A stretch of DNA of 64,000 nt from Planctomycetota bacterium (GTDB taxonomy: Bacteria; Planctomycetota; Phycisphaerae; UBA1845; UTPLA1): positions 1 to 64,000 of the forward strand of contig QEVG01000030.1 in assembly GCA_003576905.1 (NCBI GenBank), written 5' to 3'. Shown here piece after piece: positions 2,499 through 52,667 of this stretch. Positions within the stretch are counted from its first letter, which is position 1. The number at the start of each line of letters is the position of its first letter. The translations under genes and the position numbers were made by a program. A model generated the notes under the pieces. The model worked only from the letters and a program-made list of their open reading frames with translations. It had not been told where the DNA came from and ran no database searches.

Positions 2499-5557
<3,059 letters not shown>

Positions 5558-44808: not shown

Positions 44809-46146
44809 TTACCTGAGATCGGCGACGCGCTTCGCCAGTGCCAGTGCGGTGGCTTCGTCGGCCGCCTCGGAGATGACCCGGGCGATGGGCTCGGTGTTGG
44901 ACGGACGGACGTGCACCCAGCCTTCGGGCCAGTCGATGCGGAGGCCGTCGACGTCACTGAGCCGGCCGCCGTGGGTGTCGAGGCGGACGCGCTGCATCCA
45001 CACGTTTATCTGTTCGCGGGTCAGTTCGTACTTCTGTTTCACCATGACGTAGCGCGGCATCTCGTCGACGATGGCCGACAGGGGGCGCCAGTCCTCGGCG
45101 AGCAGGCCCAGGACCAGGCCCATCGAGGCGAGGCTGTCGCGGACGAGCACGACGCGCGGGTCGATGACGCCGCCGTTGCCCTCGCCGCCGATGACGCACT
45201 TGCGCGCCGAGATCGCGTCGACCACGTTCGCCTCACCCACGGCCGTCCGGTACACGGCGCAGGGTCCGCCCAATGCCGACGCGATGTCATCAATCATGCG
45301 CGACGTCGACAGGTTGGCGGCGGCCGCCCCCGGCGACTTCGACAGCACGAACTTCGCCGCCAGGGCGAGCGTGTATTCCTCTCCGATGTAGCGTCCCGAG
45401 TTGTCGACGATGGCCAGCCGGTCGGCGTCCGGGTCCTGGGCGAAGCCGATGTCCGCGCCGTTTTTCTTCACCGCCTCGCACAGGCTGACGAGGTTCTCGG
45501 CGGTCGGCTCCGGCGGGTGGGCAAAGTGCCCGGTCGGGTCGGCGTTGATGTGGACGACCTTGCAGCCGAGCATTTCGAGGAGTGTCCGGCCGCTCGCGCC
45601 GCCGGCGCCGTTGACGCTGTCGAGGACGACCTTGAGCTGTCGGCGGCGGATCGCGGCGGCGTCGACCACGCGGATGACGCGGGCGACGTGGCGGTCGCAG
45701 GTGGACAGGTCGCGTTCGGACCGGCCGACGCGGTCGACGTCTTCGTGGCGGGCGCGCTGATCGCGGTGAATGGCGAAGATCTGCTCGGCGATCTGCGCCG
45801 AGGGCGCGCGGCCGGAGGCGGTCAGGAACTTGATTCCGTTCCAGATAACCGGGTTGTGGCTCGCGGTGATGACGACCCCGCCCTTGGCTCCCAGCTCGGT
45901 AACCATGACGGCCGTGCCGGGCGTCGTCGCCAGGCCGAGTTCGACGACGTGGCACCCGGCGGAGAGCAGTCCGGCCTTGACGGCGGAGGCGACCATTTCG
46001 CCCGAGGGGCGCGAGTCCATGCCGAGCACGACCGGGCCGCCGCGGAGGTAGGTGCCGAAGGCCGCGCCCATGGCGGCGGCGAGGTTGGGCGTCATCGAGT
46101 CGCCGATCACGCCGCGGACGCCGGAAACGCTCATCATTAACGACAT
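44809..46146 (-). CDS. glmM: Phosphohexomutase, probable phosphoglucosamine mutase
   Basis: A 445-residue alpha-D-phosphohexomutase. Catalytic Ser in ITASHNPVIWNGIKF, metal loop DPDADRLAIVD, sugar-binding GGEGNGGVI and phosphate loop RPSNTEPIAR. GGEGNGG (rather than bacterial GGEQSG or PMM-type GGEMSG) matches archaeal-type phosphoglucosamine mutases. It probably makes glucosamine-1-phosphate for UDP-GlcNAc. The ATG with GGGAG eight bases upstream is chosen; a longer reading runs through antisense-like Pro/Arg-rich sequence. Confidence 0.88.
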   Translation of the reverse strand: MSLMMSVSGVRGVIGDSMTPNLAAAMGAAFGTYLRGGPVVLGMDSRPSGEMVASAVKAGLLSAGCHVVELGLATTPGTAVMVTELGAKGGVVITASHNPVIWNGIKFLTASGRAPSAQIAEQIFAIHRDQRARHEDVDRVGRSERDLSTCDRHVARVIRVVDAAAIRRRQLKVVLDSVNGAGGASGRTLLEMLGCKVVHINADPTGHFAHPPEPTAENLVSLCEAVKKNGADIGFAQDPDADRLAIVDNSGRYIGEEYTLALAAKFVLSKSPGAAAANLSTSRMIDDIASALGGPCAVYRTAVGEANVVDAISARKCVIGGEGNGGVIDPRVVLVRDSLASMGLVLGLLAEDWRPLSAIVDEMPRYVMVKQKYELTREQINVWMQRVRLDTHGGRLSDVDGLRIDWPEGWVHVRPSNTEPIARVISEAADEATALALAKRVADLR

Positions 46147-46234
46147 GCGCCGTGCTCCCGGTCGCCCCGCTGGGGAGCGACGCTCCGATGGCTCATTGTA
46201 TCGGGGGTTTGCGGCCGCGGCGAATGCGCGCGGC

Positions 46235-46498
46235 TCAGCGTGCCCGGCGGAGGGTCTCGATTTCTTCGCGGATGTCCGGGCGGATGTAGTGCGTGTCGAT
46301 TTCGGGGAGGGGGGCCAGCGCGGCAAGGGTTTTCTCGTAGCGGGTCTCGAGGTCGGCGAGGGTGTCGACAAAGAGCACGCGCTTGCCGCGGAGGACGCAG
46401 TAGCCTCCGCCCGCGCCGCCGAGCGGTTCGCGGCGAATCTCCAGGCCGATCTCGGCGGCGAGGGCCAGCAGTTCCTCGAGGCGCGATTGCAGGTCCAT
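46235..46498 (-). CDS. 87-residue protein, unknown, probable lineage-specific
   Basis: A small acidic helical protein starting MDLQSRLEELLALAAEIGLEI, with GGAGGGYCVLRGKRVLFVD in the middle, an ATG start, and a natural end (REEIETLRRAR). The Gly-rich turn followed by Cys and RGK then a hydrophobic strand suggests a small alpha/beta domain. It lies 88 bases before glmM, same strand. Function unknown. Confidence 0.7.
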   Translation of the reverse strand: MDLQSRLEELLALAAEIGLEIRREPLGGAGGGYCVLRGKRVLFVDTLADLETRYEKTLAALAPLPEIDTHYIRPDIREEIETLRRAR

Positions 46499-46787
46499 GG
46501 CCGGCCAGTGTACTCCCGCCCCTGCGCTGGTCCCACCCCCGGCGCATGCCACGGCGCCGCCGGAGGAGACTCCCCGCGCGGGGCTTGTGTCTCCGGCGCG
46601 CGGGCCGGGCGCGCAGCGGGAAGCGGACCGCGGGGCGGGCGGATCATGGCGGGCTGCGCGATCTGCCGATGGAAAAGGTGGGGGAGGCCGCGCGCCGGTC
46701 TCGGCGCGGGAGGCGTCGCGCGACGCCCGGCCGGGCGAGGAAACCGGGAGTGCGGGTCGCGCCGCGCGAAGAGAGCGAGCAGGCCGA

Positions 46788-47621
46788 ATGTCACACGACC
46801 CGTCGACGCAGATCGACTTTTCGAACCTGGAGGGCGATGTTTCGGCGCACCTGGACCACTTGGAGTGGCAGCTCGCGGCGCTGACCTCGCAGGTGCAGCG
46901 GCTCCAGCGGCTGGCCTCGATGGGGACGATGTCCGCCGTCCTGGCCCACGAGTTCAACAACCTGCTCACGCCGATGGTCAGCGCGTCGCAGCACGCCCTC
47001 TCGCGCGGCGAGCCGGAGATAATGAAGTCGGCCCTGGAGAAATCGCTCCGCGCCGGGCAGAAGCTGGCGAGCCTTTGCGAGAAGATCCTCGGCATGGCGA
47101 CCGACGATTCGCGCGGCGCGAGCGTCGGGCCGATCGCCCCGGTCGTGCGCGAAGCGGTGGAGTGCCTCGCCCGCGACCCCGAGAAGGATGACATCACCCT
47201 GACCCTCGATGTGCCGGAGACGCTGACGGCGAAGTTCTGCCCGGCATCGCTGCAGCAGGTGATCTTCAACCTGGCACTGAACGCCCGACAGGCGATGGCC
47301 GGCAAGCCCGGCCGACTGACGATCTGTGCCCGTGCCATCTCGCCGGACGCCGCTGCGCCAGGCGCCGCAGCGCCACCGCTCGCGGGTGGCGTGCTGATCA
47401 CCGTCACCGACACCGGGTGCGGGATCCGCCCGGAGAACCTGGACCGCATCTTCGAACCGTTCTTCACGACGAAGCAGCACCAGAGCCGCCTCGACCGCGG
47501 CGGCGTGGGCCTGGGCCTGCACGTGTGCCGCCAGCTTGTCACGGAGATGGGCGGGACCATCGGCGTGGAAAGCCGGCCGGGGGAGGGGGCGACTTTCCGG
47601 CTTGTGCTTCCGGCTGCTTAG
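46788..47621 (+). CDS. NtrB-like soluble histidine kinase
   Basis: A 277-residue kinase without membrane segments. A coiled-coil start is followed by the dimerisation helix with phospho-His in VLAHEFNNLLTPM, then an N-box FNLALNARQAM, DTGCGIRPENLDRIFEPFFTTK and GGVGLGLHVCRQLV. No sensor domain precedes it, so it must receive its signal through a partner. The HEFNN form is typical of NtrB/ZraS-type kinases. The chosen ATG gives the shortest intact kinase; the open frame upstream is Arg/Pro-rich and likely non-coding. No response regulator is adjacent. Confidence 0.88.
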   Translation: MSHDPSTQIDFSNLEGDVSAHLDHLEWQLAALTSQVQRLQRLASMGTMSAVLAHEFNNLLTPMVSASQHALSRGEPEIMKSALEKSLRAGQKLASLCEKILGMATDDSRGASVGPIAPVVREAVECLARDPEKDDITLTLDVPETLTAKFCPASLQQVIFNLALNARQAMAGKPGRLTICARAISPDAAAPGAAAPPLAGGVLITVTDTGCGIRPENLDRIFEPFFTTKQHQSRLDRGGVGLGLHVCRQLVTEMGGTIGVESRPGEGATFRLVLPAA

Positions 47622-48003
47622 GGAAGTTGTCGAAGCTGAATTTCAGGGTCTACTTTTTTTTCTGCTGAATTAACCGGAATCGCCCGGAATTGCCCGGAAA
47701 CGGGGCGAGCCGAGCGAGCCAGCGTTCAATACCGAGGGGTGCAGGGGCCGGTTGGGGGATGCATCCGTTCGGTATGGAAGAGGCTTGCTCGCTGTGCGCG
47801 CTGAGAGGGAGACCGAGAACACAGACATGGCGAATCGCAAGGAAGGCACCGGTTGGCGGGGCGAAGTGTGGTCGAACTGGGAAGTGCCCACCCTGCGAGG
47901 GTGCTGGGCATCGGCGCGGAGCAACTTTGTCGGTTGTTGCAGGCCCGGATGCACCGGCTAATAGCCGGTGCCACACTGTGGCCGGCCGATCCTGTATACC
48001 AGC
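47622..48003 (+). other. Intergenic region holding the left 110-bp repeat
   Basis: No convincing gene. A nine-T run at 47649-47659 after the kinase stop has only a weak hairpin before it. The right third is the direct repeat described separately. Confidence 0.5.
47883..47992. repeat. Left copy of 110-bp direct repeat with hairpins
   Basis: A 110-base unit that recurs at 48495-48604 in the same orientation with eight mismatches and no gaps (about 93% identical). It contains a perfect 9-bp hairpin GCACCGGCT-AAT-AGCCGGTGC (47951-47971) and a second imperfect hairpin near its start (TGCCCACCCT/AGGGTGCTGGGCA). It ends just before the start of the lipoprotein gene. Confidence 0.95.
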
Positions 48004-48441
48004 ATGCCGATTCCGAGCGCTATGAACGGTGCCATGCGTCCTGTATCGCCCACTCTCATCGTGCTTGCGATTTCGAGCGCGCTTCTGTGCGGCTGCGATC
48101 GGCGGCAGGGCGTGAAGGCGCCGGAAACGCAAATGGCCGAGCACGCCGTCATCGTACATTTTGAATATGGGCAGCAGGACCTCGCCCCACTCCACGCACT
48201 GGAAGGCGATCTCATCAAGGCGATTGAAGCCGCAGACGCCGGAGAACTTGATGGGAGCGATGTTGCGACGGATGGAAGCGAAGGCTCCCTGTACATGTAC
48301 GGTCCGGATGCGGCTCGACTTTTTGAGGCGGTGAGACCGGTGCTGGAGTCAGCGACCTGCATCCGTCAGGCTGTCGCAACGCTTCGATACGGTCCGCCGG
48401 AGGATGGCGTTCGGGAGCGGCGGGTCAAGATCGGGCGTTAA
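48004..48441 (+). CDS. Small lipoprotein bracketed by direct repeats
   Basis: A 145-residue protein. Signal peptide with hydrophobic LIVLAISSALLCGC; the Cys after LLCG is the probable lipidation site. The mature part (AVIVHFEYGQQDLAPLHALE, SLYMYGPDAARLFEAVRPVL, LRYGPPEDGVRERRVKIG) reads as a compact alpha/beta domain of about 100 residues that I have seen as stand-alone immunity-like or unknown proteins; I cannot name the family. An ATG six codons downstream is an alternative start. Both flanks carry the same 110-bp repeat. Confidence 0.72.
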   Translation: MPIPSAMNGAMRPVSPTLIVLAISSALLCGCDRRQGVKAPETQMAEHAVIVHFEYGQQDLAPLHALEGDLIKAIEAADAGELDGSDVATDGSEGSLYMYGPDAARLFEAVRPVLESATCIRQAVATLRYGPPEDGVRERRVKIGR

Positions 48442-48453
48442 TTAGTTGGCAGT

Positions 48454-48476
48454 GCGCCACCCGCGAGGAGTGGCGC
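48454..48476. terminator. Perfect 7-bp hairpin after lipoprotein gene
   Basis: GCGCCAC and GTGGCGC with a nine-base loop, 12 bases after the stop codon. No T-run follows. The surrounding bases resemble the start of the 110-bp repeat, so this may be a third partial copy rather than a true terminator. Confidence 0.35.
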
Positions 48477-48494
48477 TATGGGGGATTTGTGGGC

Positions 48495-48604
48495 AGTGCC
48501 CACTCTACGAGGGTGCGGGGCATCGGCGCGAAGCGACTTTGACGGTTGTTGCAGGCCCGGATGCACCGGCTGATAGCCGGTGCCACACTGTGGCCGGGCG
48601 ATCC
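48495..48604. repeat. Right copy of 110-bp direct repeat
   Basis: Same orientation as the copy at 47883. The 9-bp hairpin is intact (48563-48583), and its only change is in the loop (AAT to GAT), so the stem is preserved while other positions drift. It ends 20 bases before the end of the exporter permease gene. Confidence 0.95.
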
Positions 48605-48623
48605 AGGCAATGCCCACCGTGCG

Positions 48624-49769
48624 CTAATCGAGCTGCTTTCGGAACCGTGTCAGGCTCAGGGCCATCACGATCAGGCACACGGCCGAGAGGCCGAGGATGT
48701 GGGGGATGAGGTCGGCGAGGTCGGCGGCGCGGAGGATGACGCCGCGGAGGATCTCGATGAAGTAGGTCACCGGGAGAATGAAGCCGATCAGGTAGAGCGG
48801 CAGGGGCATCTCGGACCGGGGGAACATGAAGCCGGAGAGCAGCACGCTGGGGAGCATCACCAGGAACGAGAGCTGCATCGCCTGAAGCTGGGTCCGCGCG
48901 ACGGTGCTGATGAGCAGGCCCAGTGCCAGGGCGGTGACAATGAAGATGGACGACAGGGCCAGGAGCAGCCACAGGCTGCCGTGAATCGGCACGCCGAACA
49001 GGGCCGTCATCAGCGTCAGCACCATCAACAGCACCCCCACCGACATCAGCACATAGGGAATCAGCTTGCCGAAGAGGAGCCCGGCACGGCCGACCGGGGT
49101 GACGAAGAGCTGCTCCAGGGTGCCGAATTCGCGTTCGCGGACGATGGAGAAGCTGGTCAGGAAGACAAGGACGATCTGAAGAATGATGGCGATCAGGCCC
49201 GGCACGAAGAAGTTCGCGCTTTCGAGGTTGGGGTTGAAGAGCAGCCGCGTCCGGGCGTCGATGGGAATCGCCGTGTCGCCGCGCTCGTCACGGGCCGGGG
49301 CGGCGGCGAGGGTCTCGCCGAAGGCGCGGGCGCGGCCGATGCTGACCTGGAGCACGGCGAGGTTGATGGTGTTAAGGGCGGTCGTGGCGACCTGCGAATC
49401 GCTTCCGTCGATGAGGACCTGGACATGGGCCTGTTCGCGGGCGAGAAGGCGATCGCTGTAATCGGCGGGGATGAGCAGCCCGGCGCGGCAGCGCCCGCTG
49501 GTCAGGGCGCGGCGGAACTGCTCGTGGCTGGTCACTTTTTCGGCGACGCGGAAGGTGCGGGTGTTGACGAGGGCATCGACGATTTTTCGGCTTTCCTCGT
49601 GGCCGTCGAGGTCGTAGACGGCGAGGGGGATGTTTTCGATGGTGACTTCGATGGCGTAGCCGAAGATGGTGAGCTGGATGACGGGGATGAAGAGGATGAA
49701 GAGGATGGTGCCGCGGTCGCGGCGAATCTGTGCGAATTCCTTAAGGAGGATGGCGAGGAAGCCGTTCAT
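48624..49769 (-). CDS. ABC-2 type permease of drug/lipid exporter
   Basis: A 381-residue permease of the YbhS/YhhJ type. TM1 near 22-40 (LFILFIPVIQLTIFGYAIEV), a periplasmic domain of about 130 residues, then five helices with VREREFGTLEQLFVTPV (the coupling motif), LPSVLLSGFMFPRSEMP and the family-typical PVTYFIEILRGVILR. It works with the HlyD-type and ATPase genes on the same strand. Its start overlaps the stop of an orphan ATPase tail by ATGA, evidence that a second ATPase gene once lay directly upstream. Confidence 0.93.
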   Translation of the reverse strand: MNGFLAILLKEFAQIRRDRGTILFILFIPVIQLTIFGYAIEVTIENIPLAVYDLDGHEESRKIVDALVNTRTFRVAEKVTSHEQFRRALTSGRCRAGLLIPADYSDRLLAREQAHVQVLIDGSDSQVATTALNTINLAVLQVSIGRARAFGETLAAAPARDERGDTAIPIDARTRLLFNPNLESANFFVPGLIAIILQIVLVFLTSFSIVREREFGTLEQLFVTPVGRAGLLFGKLIPYVLMSVGVLLMVLTLMTALFGVPIHGSLWLLLALSSIFIVTALALGLLISTVARTQLQAMQLSFLVMLPSVLLSGFMFPRSEMPLPLYLIGFILPVTYFIEILRGVILRAADLADLIPHILGLSAVCLIVMALSLTRFRKQLD

Positions 49770-49852
49770 GCCCTGTTCCTTGTCGAGTACGATCGTGAGA
49801 GCAAGACGAACACATCCTCAAGCGACGGCGCGACCGGGCGGTGGGCGGCAAG
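49766..49852 (-). pseudogene. Orphan 3' end of an ABC ATPase gene
   Basis: Reads 28 codons ending ...VAPSLEDVFVLLSRSYSTRNRA and a stop that overlaps the permease start. The intact ATPase ends ...VAPSLEDVFVLMSRSQLTGGNRLG. The two tails share 38 identical bases, then differ at synonymous and non-synonymous positions. The frame is closed by a TGA just upstream, nine bases after the toxin stop. This is a remnant of either a displaced ATPase tail or a lost second ATPase. Confidence 0.85.
49809..49846. repeat. 38-bp direct repeat, permease-side copy
   Basis: Identical to 50627-50664 in the intact ATPase gene, same orientation, 818 bases apart. It encodes the shared AHRPVAPSLEDVF segment. Together the two copies bracket the toxin-antitoxin module. 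Confidence 0.95.
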
Positions 49853-49861
49853 GTTTCAACG

Positions 49862-50260
49862 TCAGGCGCTTCTCGGGGCAAGTTTCAGATCGGACACTCC
49901 GGAAAAATGTGAATCCGAGGTCGCAAGCGGAATGTCATGCTCGATGCAGACGGCCGCGATCCACACGTCGTTTTCGGGAATCGGCCCGCCGGACTGTTTG
50001 AGTCGCAGCCGAACGCGTGCGTACACGGCGGCGGTATCTTTGGTAACGGGCAGGACGGTGCAGTTCGCGAGCAGCGCGTGAACCTTCTCGCGGTTTTCGC
50101 GCGCCCGGCTGGACTTTTCGGCGCCGAAGAGGAGTTTTCCAAGCACCGGGACGGGCAGAAAGACAGGATGATGCCGCGCAATCCGATCGCCCGCGCCTCC
50201 CGTGTTGTTGAGGACCGCAATCGCCTCGCTGGTGTCGAGGGCAATGGGACTACCACTCAC
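49862..50260 (-). CDS. vapC: VapC-type PIN-domain toxin with altered active site
   Basis: A 132-residue PIN protein. GTG start inside the antitoxin end (11-base overlap). Acidic residues: Asp9 in ALDTSEAI, Asp98 in PENDVWIAA, Asp116 in ATSDSHF. The second acid, Glu in the family motif GELLFGA, is Lys42 here (GKLLFGAEKS, codon AAA at 50135-50137). PIN nucleases need this Glu for metal binding, so activity is probably lost or strongly reduced. Otherwise full length. It lies between the two parts of an exporter operon. Confidence 0.88.
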   Translation of the reverse strand: MSGSPIALDTSEAIAVLNNTGGAGDRIARHHPVFLPVPVLGKLLFGAEKSSRARENREKVHALLANCTVLPVTKDTAAVYARVRLRLKQSGGPIPENDVWIAAVCIEHDIPLATSDSHFSGVSDLKLAPRSA

Positions 50261-50474
50261 CGTCGTCCACCTTTTCGAACTCGGTTGCGATGATCCTGGA
50301 CATTTCGTCGGCGTCCTGGTCAGAGAGGATTCCGACGCACCCAGCGAAACCGATCGCCGGCGTCTCGACGGATTCGACGGTGACCCGCACATGGCTGTGA
50401 TCGGCAAGGTCCCCCAGTGAATCGAGCGGCTTGAGGACGCCGTTCTCGTACAAGGCTCGCACGGTCCGTGTCAT
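50250..50474 (-). CDS. DUF104/AF2212-like antitoxin
   Basis: A 74-residue protein beginning TRTVRALYENGVLKPLDSLGDL, the standard opening of AF2212-like (DUF104) antitoxins, with a strand HVRVTVESVE and an acidic helical tail (DADEMSRIIATEFEKVDDGEW) that would wrap the PIN partner. AGGTGA six bases before the ATG. It overlaps the toxin gene. Confidence 0.88.
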   Translation of the reverse strand: MTRTVRALYENGVLKPLDSLGDLADHSHVRVTVESVETPAIGFAGCVGILSDQDADEMSRIIATEFEKVDDGEW

Positions 50475-50528
50475 GATTCTTCACCTCGTGAGCCGCCGGA
50501 TTCGTTTTCGCGTATGCCGGCTCTTCCT

Positions 50529-50537
50529 ATTCTACCA
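50529..50537 (-). promoter_or_regulatory. Extended -10 promoter for the toxin-antitoxin module
   Basis: On the minus strand TGGTAGAAT (TG-n-TAGAAT). It ends 54 bases before the antitoxin start. The -35 region is poor, as allowed for extended -10 promoters. It lies in the 103 bases between the ATPase stop and the antitoxin, so the module could be expressed apart from the exporter. Confidence 0.4.
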
Positions 50538-50577
50538 TTTGCGGCGCCGAACGTCCCGGATGGTATTGCGCATCCGG

Positions 50578-51534
50578 TTAGCCGAGTCGATTGCCTCCGG
50601 TTAATTGCGAGCGGCTCATCAGCACAAACACATCCTCAAGCGACGGCGCGACCGGGCGGTGGGCTGCGGCCGGGTCGTCGGGGGTGATCTCGCGCAGGAG
50701 GGCCTCGGGCGCGTGCTCCTCGGCGAGCAGGACGTGCAGGGTGTCCCCGAACATCGTGGCGTCGCGGACGGCAGGGATCGCGCGGGCCCTGGCGAGGGCG
50801 GCGGCGGGGTGGGTGCAACTGATTTCGTATCGCCGCGTGCCCGGCGGGTTGACTTCGGGGGCGGCCTTGAGGGTTTCGGGCCGTCCGAGGGCGATCAGGC
50901 GGGCCTGGTGGATGTAGCCGACGTGGGTGCAGCGCTCGGCTTCGTCCATGTAGTGCGTGGTGACAAACATCGTGACACCCCGTCCGGACAGCTCGAAGAG
51001 CAGGTCCCACAGGTCGCGGCGCGCGACGGGATCGATGCCTGCCGTCGGCTCGTCGAGAAAGAGCACTTCCGGCTGGTGGATCATGGCGCAGGCCAGGGCG
51101 AGCCGCTGCTTCCATCCGCCGGAGAGGTTCGCCGCGAGGCGGTCGGTGAAGGGGGCGATGCCGGTCAGGGTGATGACCGCTTCCTCGCGTTCGCGGCGCA
51201 ATCGGGGCGACAGGCCGTAGATGCGGGCGTAGAAGGCGAGATTCTCCATGACGGAAAGGTCGCCGTAGAGGCTGAACTTCTGCGACATGTAGCCGATCCG
51301 GCGTTTGACGGCTTCGGCGTCGCGGCGGATGTCGTGTCCGAGGACGCTGCCGGTTCCGTCGCTGGGTCGCAGGACGCCGCAGAGCATTCGGATCAGGGTG
51401 GACTTGCCCGATCCGTTGGGGCCGAGCAGTCCGAAGATGTCCGCCCGGCCGACGGAGAGGGAGACTTCGCGGACGGCGACGAAGTCGCCGAATTTCCGGG
51501 TGAGGCGGTCGGCGCGGATGACGGTGTCGCTCAC
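50578..51534 (-). CDS. ABC exporter ATPase
   Basis: A 318-residue ATPase of the YbhF type. Walker A GLLGPNGSGKST, Q-loop YMSQKFSLYGDLSV, signature LSGGWKQRLALA, Walker B VLFLDEPTAGID and switch His in TTHYMDEAE. The C-terminal extension ends in the common PSLEDVFVLMSR tail. Start GTG overlaps the HlyD-type gene stop (GTGA). The last 10 codons differ from the tail still fused to the permease start. In the related YbhF the two ATPase domains are fused; here only one whole domain remains. Confidence 0.94.
   Translation of the reverse strand: MSDTVIRADRLTRKFGDFVAVREVSLSVGRADIFGLLGPNGSGKSTLIRMLCGVLRPSDGTGSVLGHDIRRDAEAVKRRIGYMSQKFSLYGDLSVMENLAFYARIYGLSPRLRREREEAVITLTGIAPFTDRLAANLSGGWKQRLALACAMIHQPEVLFLDEPTAGIDPVARRDLWDLLFELSGRGVTMFVTTHYMDEAERCTHVGYIHQARLIALGRPETLKAAPEVNPPGTRRYEISCTHPAAALARARAIPAVRDATMFGDTLHVLLAEEHAPEALLREITPDDPAAAHRPVAPSLEDVFVLMSRSQLTGGNRLG
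50627..50664. repeat. 38-bp direct repeat, ATPase-side copy
   Basis: Lies near the 3' end of the intact ATPase gene and is identical to 49809-49846. Confidence 0.95.
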
Positions 51535-52667
51535 GGTGACACCTTTTCATCGAAGCGCAGGTCGGCGGCCATTCCGACGCGGAGCCGGTCGAGGGGGGGC
51601 TGGAGGGTCGCCTTTACGCGGAAGACCTGCTTGCTGCGCTCTTCGGGCGTCTGGATGTTCTTCGGGGTGAATTCCGCCTCGCGTGCGATGAAGGTGATTT
51701 TCGCGCTGAATCGCTCGCCGGGGAAGCTGTCGACCGACACGGGCACGTCCTGACCCAGGGTGACCTGGCCGAGGCGGTTTTCGGGCACGTAGGAGCGGAC
51801 CCACAGGCGGCCCTGGTCGAGGAGTGAAATCGTCGGGGCGTTGGGGGAGACGATGTCGCCCGGCTGAAGATCGACGGCCTCGACGACGCAGTGACATGGC
51901 GACGACACGACGAGCTCGCGCATCTGCACTTCGATGGCGGCGACGCGGGAGCGCGCCGCGAGCACTTCGGCCTCGGCCCGGGCGACGTCCTCGGCGCGGT
52001 AGCCCTCGGTGACGAGCTTCAGGGCTGATTCGGCGCGGGCGAGCGCGGCGCGGCCGGCGGCGATGTCTTCCTTGCGCGATCCTTCGACGAGCAGGGCGAG
52101 CGTCTGTTCGGCGGCGGCGGTGCGGCCTTCGGCGGCGCGGAGGGCGCGGAGGGCTTCGTCGAGTTCGCGCTGCGCCGCCTGGGCCTGGGTTTCGAGGCGC
52201 TTGAGCCGCTCGTATTCCGACTTCGCAAAATCGAGGCCGGCCTGTTCGACCTTGAGCTGTTCGCGGGCGAAGTCGATCTCCTGCCTGCGCGGTCCGGCGG
52301 TGAGGCGTTCCAGCGCGGCGGCGGCTTCGTCGCGCTGGGCGCGGGCCTGTTCGATTTCCTCGGCGCGGTAGCCGGCCTTCAGGCGTGCGAATTCGGCTTC
52401 GAGGGCGGCAAGGGTGGCCCGGCTCTGGGCGAGTTGTTCATTCAGGTCGAACGGGTCGATGCGGAGCAGGGGCGTGCCCGGCTCGACAATCGAGCCTTCA
52501 TCGACGAGGACTTCGGCGATTCGTCCGCCGATGCGGGAGCCGACGCGGACGGTATCGGCCTCGATGAAGCCGGAGACGACAAAGGGCGGGGTGCGCGTCT
52601 GGTTCCAGGTAAGCCATCCGATAAGGGCGGCGACGATGAGGATGACAGCGGCGGCGGGTTTTGGCAT
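51531..52667 (-). CDS. HlyD-family membrane fusion protein
   Basis: A 378-residue periplasmic adaptor of the YbhG/EmrA type. One N-terminal anchor (about 5-20), a first lipoyl half (VSGFIEADTVRVGSRIGGRI), a long coiled coil from about 85 to 255 rich in Ala/Glu/Arg, the second lipoyl half (SSPCHCVVEAVDLQPGDIVS) and the beta-barrel (LWVRSYVPENRLGQVTLGQ). First gene of the exporter operon. The coiled coil repeats GYRAEEIEQA and GYRAEDVARA suggest internal duplication. It carries an unusual CHC in the lipoyl domain. Confidence 0.92.
   Translation of the reverse strand: MPKPAAAVILIVAALIGWLTWNQTRTPPFVVSGFIEADTVRVGSRIGGRIAEVLVDEGSIVEPGTPLLRIDPFDLNEQLAQSRATLAALEAEFARLKAGYRAEEIEQARAQRDEAAAALERLTAGPRRQEIDFAREQLKVEQAGLDFAKSEYERLKRLETQAQAAQRELDEALRALRAAEGRTAAAEQTLALLVEGSRKEDIAAGRAALARAESALKLVTEGYRAEDVARAEAEVLAARSRVAAIEVQMRELVVSSPCHCVVEAVDLQPGDIVSPNAPTISLLDQGRLWVRSYVPENRLGQVTLGQDVPVSVDSFPGERFSAKITFIAREAEFTPKNIQTPEERSKQVFRVKATLQPPLDRLRVGMAADLRFDEKVSP

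Follow-up and report, generated by a model that had tools for sequence, protein, structure and literature searches.

Background

Bacterial gene gain is in large part credited to phages, plasmids, transposons and integrons. A further type, insertion with long target duplication, is reportedly the subject of Nobusato et al. 2000 (Gene 259:99) and Furuta et al. 2010. In the parts of the literature available to us it is described for restriction-modification genes, those of H. pylori among others (PMC1643837, PMC3154945, PMC3874152, PMC3031569). For the T6SS loci of V. cholerae, homology-facilitated illegitimate recombination has been proposed, and in the portion of that account at hand the import has displaced the 3' ends of resident genes to its downstream side (PMC5361080). 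The REP elements and BIMEs include the GTAG superfamily (Di Nocera et al. 2013), and GTGG is printed for most O. terrae GTAG-20 elements in the excerpt of that paper seen by us (PMC3733652). Integron gene cassettes are associated with attC sites, whose consensus cores are given as RYYYAAC and GTTRRRY in the relevant section of one account (PMC3053210). No match for a case similar to the one below was found in the portions of the Planctomycetes literature that were searched.

Here we analyze a single lipoprotein gene lying between direct repeats in a 64-kb stretch of DNA from a Planctomycetota bacterium (contig QEVG01000030.1, positions 1 to 64,000, henceforth the window). The locus resembles insertion with long target duplication in that a foreign-looking gene lies between direct copies of a target of about 100 bp. 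It differs in that the cargo is a lipoprotein gene, with a toxin-antitoxin pair adjacent, whereas the described cargo consists of restriction-modification genes, and in that the target is a palindrome-rich spacer. With moderate confidence we regard it as a further case of this known insertion type, whose cargo described so far, in the sources as available to us, has been restriction-modification genes.

Table 1. Coordinates of the repeats, palindromes and genes discussed in the text
Feature	Position	Strand	Basis or remark
Histidine kinase (HK)	46788..47621	+	left neighbour
Type c palindrome inside the histidine-kinase gene	47370..47392	-	
Direct repeat copy 1, 115 bp	47878..47992	+	self-comparison
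Type b palindrome GGGCANTGCCCACC, 5' end of copy 1	47879..47892	+	1 mismatch
Type a hairpin of copy 1, loop AAT, CCACA conserved 3'	47951..47971	+	dispersed-family member
Bracketed gene, predicted lipoprotein, 145 aa, ferredoxin-like domain	48004..48441	+	without Pfam match
Type c palindrome GCGCCACCCGCGAGGAGTGGCGC	48454..48476	+	
Direct repeat copy 2, 115 bp, 9 mismatches versus copy 1	48490..48604	+	self-comparison
Type b palindrome, 5' end of copy 2	48491..48504	+	1 mismatch
Type a hairpin of copy 2, loop GAT	48563..48583	+	
Further type b match directly after copy 2	48605..48618	+	1 mismatch
ABC-2 permease, convergent	48624..49769	-	right neighbour
44-bp direct repeat, left copy: ATPase 3'-end remnant running into the overlapping permease start	49806..49849	-	
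AF2212-like and PIN genes (toxin-antitoxin pair), between the 44-bp repeats	49862..50474	-	Pfam
ABC ATPase with duplicated 3' end	50578..51534	-	
44-bp direct repeat, right copy, within the ATPase gene	50624..50667	-	

Results and discussion

A 115-bp direct repeat unique to this locus

The two copies of the repeat are gapless, lie in the same orientation at a spacing of 612 and are 92% identical; in a self-BLAST of the 64-kb window they align at E = 3e-42, and the only other pair at E <= 1e-3 is 49809-49846 / 50627-50664. Two gapless direct 110-base copies with eight mismatches had been described in the original prediction and are real; the span given there starts at 47883 and holds eight of the nine mismatches of the full 115-bp repeat. 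Seven of the nine fall in the first half, a weak gradient. Because the copies differ at nine positions, an assembly artefact is unlikely.

In the 4.71-Mb genome the whole unit has two copies, both at this locus, and a third match is the hairpin alone (35 of 35 candidates scored). A search of 61 genomes with the unit, the organism's own included and 47 of them at least 90% complete, gave nine genomes with a match among the matches listed; beyond this locus the listed matches, drawn from no more than 14 scored candidates per genome, comprise only the hairpin part, query bases 63-113. The non-palindromic middle of the unit is duplicated as well, and is found nowhere else among the matches listed. 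An exact 23-base stretch covering this middle and the start of the hairpin had no match in IMG/VR, and a search of Rfam gave nothing useful. With only two copies in the genome, both here, and the hairpin part alone elsewhere among the matches listed, the unit was rejected both as a dispersed element and as a REP element, which should be present in many copies, and the earlier idea that it is itself mobile finds no support in the same evidence. It had also been proposed that a unit unique to this place, with no sign of the gene being absent in relatives, would speak against a mobile or amplifiable segment; the unit is indeed unique to this place, yet the gene is unmatched in relatives. Folded as single strands, the whole units do only moderately better than shuffles (z -2.5 and -1.6), and the two copies adopt different folds; the hairpin of copy 1 taken alone folds strongly (z -5.6).

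The bracketed gene is very probably an import

The gene starts 11 bp past copy 1, stops 48 bp ahead of copy 2 and is the single assigned gene of the insert (47993-48489), which holds no recombinase. The encoded protein has a signal peptide and a motif that we read as a lipobox. It has no match in Pfam, a single match below the cut-off in NCBIfam and a best E of 0.016 in a PDB sequence search, and searches of phages and of IMG/VR with the protein gave nothing useful. Structure prediction for the domain yields a ferredoxin-like fold (pLDDT 86); the top Z values of a fold search belong to engineered ferredoxin-fold proteins, which gives no function.

No homologue was found at E 0.001 in any of 60 relatives, not all of them complete. 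Homologues with 46-70% identity in the best segment occur in at least eight contigs, titled Myxococcota, Verrucomicrobiales, Thermoanaerobaculia, Chloroflexi (two), Nitrospirae, Archangium and Actinoplanes, which we take to represent six phyla; eight is a lower bound, as the scan requires short exact peptides. Six plasmid records encode relatives at 34-43% identity. Because the gene is unmatched in the 60 relatives but has homologues across what are presumably six phyla, the lipoprotein family appears to be horizontally spread. The GC3 of the gene is 0.65, against 0.84-0.91 for the HK, permease, ATPase, HlyD and PGM genes, and the GC content of the insert lies below about 92% of equal windows, its 3-mer composition being unremarkable. 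To judge from these comparisons of sequence, the gene is very probably an import. The earlier statement that it has no relation to its neighbours is supported, both by the lack of a match in the relatives and by the GC3 difference from the five neighbouring genes.

The repeat-bearing spacer as a breakpoint

The left block (PGM, HK) is separate from the right block (HlyD, ATPase, permease) in relatives; PGM and HlyD are gene names that we assume. None of the 11 HK neighbourhoods and none of the seven permease neighbourhoods of relatives has the HK-permease junction at E <= 1e-8, some of these neighbourhoods ending at contig ends. Because none joins the two genes, the spacer that bears the repeats is a rearrangement breakpoint of the lineage. 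The two genomes of the same genus are distant, their HKs being 63 and 66% identical, and in the one of them that preserves the left block around HK the junction is not preserved.

A second repeat-bracketed import 1.2 kb away

The toxin-antitoxin pair separates the ATPase gene from the permease gene and is flanked by a 44-bp duplication of the ATPase 3' end that is identical at 42 of 44 positions. HlyD, ATPase and permease are contiguous in five of seven relatives. The repeat copy adjoining the permease gene reads APSLEDVFVLLSRSYSTRNRA-stop, and this stop overlaps the permease start, an overlap also seen in four of the five contiguous relatives (L111, L112, L113, L115), the fifth (L116) having a gap; the ATPase itself now ends in another, similar tail. 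The GC3 values of the PIN and AF2212 genes are 0.70 and 0.78. Because relatives keep ATPase and permease contiguous and the remnant keeps the stop/start overlap, an import with duplication of resident sequence can apparently be read 1.2 kb from the lipoprotein gene, with the ancestral order still legible.

Insertion with long target duplication as the best explanation

We give an even chance to the proposal that a foreign single-gene segment of about 500 bp entered a palindrome-rich spacer and duplicated about 115 bp of it, that is, to an insertion with long target duplication. Direct copies of about 100 bp flank an inserted gene that is without a match in 60 of 60 relatives. We found no IS, no transposase and no terminal inverted repeats of the insert, and none of 18 inverted pairs joins its two ends. 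The proposal is preferred to a cassette that brings its own ends because the clearer, neighbouring toxin-antitoxin case points to it. In contrast to the described cases, the lipoprotein gene is without a known empty site, none having been found in the HK and permease neighbourhoods of relatives; confidence in the explanation is moderate because this decisive empty site is missing.

The locus resembles the situation proposed for V. cholerae in that one-sided homology would anchor foreign DNA, and differs from it in that the resident sequence is duplicated rather than displaced. Either homology-facilitated illegitimate recombination or a single crossover of a circle could fit the anatomy. We infer that the spacer already held one unit of dispersed palindromes, of which types a and b do occur elsewhere. 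Incoming DNA bearing the gene would then have joined through recombination anchored in the spacer, homologous on one side and illegitimate on the other, leaving the anchor twice; a single crossover of a circle would likewise have left it twice. The copies would later have diverged by about 8%, or they may have differed from the start, one being that of the donor. The hairpins may make the spacer prone to breakage, and the lipoprotein gene would be a passenger, not the engine. It is also possible that the unit was doubled first, without the gene.

Palindromes in and around the unit

The 9-bp hairpin had been described as perfect in both copies, with the nearby change confined to the loop, and this holds: the type a hairpin, GCACCGGCTNNTAGCCGGTGCCAC, has the form GCACCGGCT-NNT-AGCCGGTGC, which is intact in both, the loop reading AAT in copy 1 and GAT in copy 2. 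With up to three mismatches the organism's own genome (G000) has 13 matches at 10 distinct places (reversed control 0), and in the 864-kb sample, at three mismatches, there are seven against one in the control. With up to two mismatches the hairpin is present in 12 of 17 genomes of the family, reaching 52, 50 and 67 matches in G010, G015 and G016 (control 0); these counts cover both strands and count palindromes partly twice. The suggestion of a dispersed hairpin element thus stands for the 9-bp hairpin and fails for the whole 110-bp unit. The type b palindrome has 39 matches in the genome with up to one mismatch, against six in the control, and stands out less in the 864-kb sample at three mismatches (102 against 66). 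The supposed third resemblance at 48451-48476 is real, though it is not a third copy but a different palindrome, type c. In the window this has no further match beyond the inverted one at 47370-47392, two being found where 0.04 would be expected by chance; the 864-kb sample has three matches, against one in the control, the third lying at about 159514 of contig C62 beside a type a variant.

These palindromes suggest a different account, a BIME-like amplification in which a palindrome cluster was duplicated locally together with flanking DNA, as is known for REP clusters, the gene being already present or a separate arrival and its bracketing incidental. In its favor, the unit holds palindromes of dispersed families, and another type b match comes right after copy 2. 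The gene between the copies is, however, a single and foreign-looking one, an unrelated duplication of a gene end brackets a second import 1.2 kb off, and the duplication extends to the non-palindromic middle, found nowhere else among the matches listed, so that we consider this account unlikely, while taking it seriously.

Type a is like the GTAG-superfamily REP elements, as far as the excerpt of their description goes, in being a short dispersed hairpin with an opposite-strand tag GTGG. On that strand it is preceded by TGTGG, a GTAG-kind tetranucleotide tag only in the degenerate form GTGG, and in 89% of 74 distinct contexts CCAC is followed by A. The hairpin was not found at the 31 RAYT loci examined and, in contrast to those elements, the 115-bp unit is not repeated. 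Genes for Y1_Tnp transposases are present in 14 of 14 genomes searched (92 matches); beside the 31 loci examined of these 92, two of which overlap, there is no type a hairpin but only look-alikes with up to three substitutions. The Y1_Tnp genes of the family are flanked by hairpins of various kinds, for instance CCACCACCTTTAGGTGGTGG and CCACCAGCTAAAGCTGGTGG, one per side, at L027 1397-1974. In G029 a variant palindrome (CACAGGCT..AGCCTGTGCCAC) is also arrayed in tandem, the unit measuring about 36-43 bp (L038; L050/L056, overlapping).

The palindromic elements of Rickettsia are palindromes within open frames of protein genes. Our palindromes are like them in occurring in the open frames of purH (G000) and of the histidine kinase in the window; they differ in sequence and lineage, and in that most counted type a copies lie outside predicted genes. 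Of 80 counted matches, which include partial double counts and were placed with a crude gene model, 65 lie outside predicted genes, 13 in an open frame only and two in predicted coding sequence; the model failed to mark the purH hairpin site as coding. The histidine kinase has an in-frame insert of 13-14 residues at about 47346-47387, which overlaps the GC-rich type c palindrome and is absent in 16 of 16 aligned orthologues. The purH gene of G000 (L020 628-2397; C62; PurH and TetR are names from Pfam and PDB) has two in-frame type a hairpins at about 143974-144042, and its protein has 41 residues where a solved PurH (4ehi) has three, a probable case of palindromes inserted into a core enzyme. 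In G010 the open frame of an impB/mucB/samB-family protein also has a type a hairpin, close to the C terminus, and two genera, represented by G002 and G010, share one at an identical point of a single long reading frame (the hairpin-in-frame loci being L041, L037 and L053).

The integron question

A further alternative is that repeat and gene form a mobile 612-bp cassette, excised as a circle and integrated at copies of the repeat, either integron-like or site-specific with unusual sites. Little room is left between the gene and the two copies, with margins of 11 and 48 bp, and some homologues have suggestive surroundings. At L103 a short gene precedes the homologue, as does an imperfect hairpin whose cores are CATAAC and GTTAGG, with the ATG seven bases further on; at L102 the gap to the next gene is bounded by CCTAAC and GTTAGA. 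Like integron gene cassettes, these two homologues adjoin attC-like sites and, to judge from the sequence motifs, are, with caution, likely to be such cassettes. The sites are weak: a strict attC scan found none at either locus, and a relaxed scan found one in L103 and none in L102, whose reversed control gave one. The L103 site folds no better than shuffles (z -1.2, with 20 of 200 as good), and the arms and ends of the L102 site do not pair. Neither scan listed a site for the other six of the eight homologue loci.

Direct repeats span the homologue in three of the eight loci, the other five having no such pair: 36 identical bp at L102 (3726-3761 / 5378-5413), 21 bp at 95% identity at L103 (3952-3972 / 4312-4332) and a 72-bp pair 5.3 kb apart at L106. 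L102 was rejected as proof of mechanism: its homologue does lie between direct repeats, but the region is too rich in repeats.

Against a cassette of this kind, and unlike integron gene cassettes, two scans with the RYYYAAC and GTTRRRY cores found no attC in 46000-52000 or in the whole window, and attC sites were accordingly rejected for it. The insert is one gene with no recombinase, the two copies fold unlike each other, and no further unit copy is among the matches listed for the 61 genomes. The mobile cassette that had been proposed for unit and insert, which have no transposase, no pairing ends and no attC in the two scans, is in our view doubtful.

A functional role for the repeats on both sides of the gene, as terminators or processing hairpins whose likeness is maintained by selection or gene conversion, appears very improbable. 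Copy 2 does lie between converging gene ends, with a perfect hairpin and the nearby change only in its loop, but a simple promoter and terminator scan gave no terminator-like site in 47600-48700, copy 1 lies upstream of the gene start, where a terminator would be of no help, and the non-palindromic middle is duplicated too.

Repeat-bracketed genes elsewhere

We scanned 864 kb of the organism's genome (18%, the window included) for similar arrangements. Seven pairs passed: the two of the window, three within single reading frames (C2 twice, C57), one between paralogues (C54:3168, genes that we assume to be GspE-like) and one at a TetR gene. In 400 kb of two relatives four pairs passed, two of them within one open frame. 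Outside the window there are thus two pairs not within one frame in 800 kb, one of them between paralogues, against two in the 400 kb of the relatives. Their frequency outside the window is no higher than in relatives; the striking feature is that the window has two, 1.2 kb apart.

The TetR pair, chosen by eye, provides a third candidate (L218 8286-10100; G000:C54), in which a TetR gene is followed by a gene for a 240-aa lipoprotein-like protein on the other strand and then by the TetR 3' end again, as a 193-bp repeat of 90% identity. No lipoprotein-like gene lies beside TetR within the fetched flank in the four loci (36-54% identity) compared of eight matches in relatives. Both gene-end repeats, that of the ATPase and that of TetR, start sharply inside the gene and fade at the protein level towards its end, a one-sided fading that suggests a homologous donor end in these two cases. 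The TetR differences number six, two and 11 at codon positions 1, 2 and 3, with six synonymous and 10 non-synonymous codons, a pattern that fits a donor tail and decay alike and does not decide between them. What the cases share is a cargo that looks foreign, the lack of a transposase and a stretch of target, 40-200 bp long, on either side.

Conclusions

Insertion with long target duplication, if it is the correct explanation of the lipoprotein locus, invites a wider and decidedly speculative hypothesis. The lineage may acquire foreign DNA, as single genes or as modules of two genes (lipoproteins, toxin-antitoxin pairs), by a route that needs no transposase, leaves target duplications of 40-200 bp and prefers gene 3' ends and palindrome-rich spacers; the landing sites would be nested hot spots, with dispersed palindromes supplying breaks or anchors.

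Neighbouring imports such as these two, each with a long direct duplication and neither with a mobility gene, would represent a legible footprint of another route of gene gain, one that could be counted across genomes by a simple repeat scan. The amplifiable segment suggested at the outset is possible in principle, since deletion or tandem amplification can proceed between direct repeats at a spacing of 612 bp; the repeats left behind by such imports would predict their precise loss and their tandem amplification.
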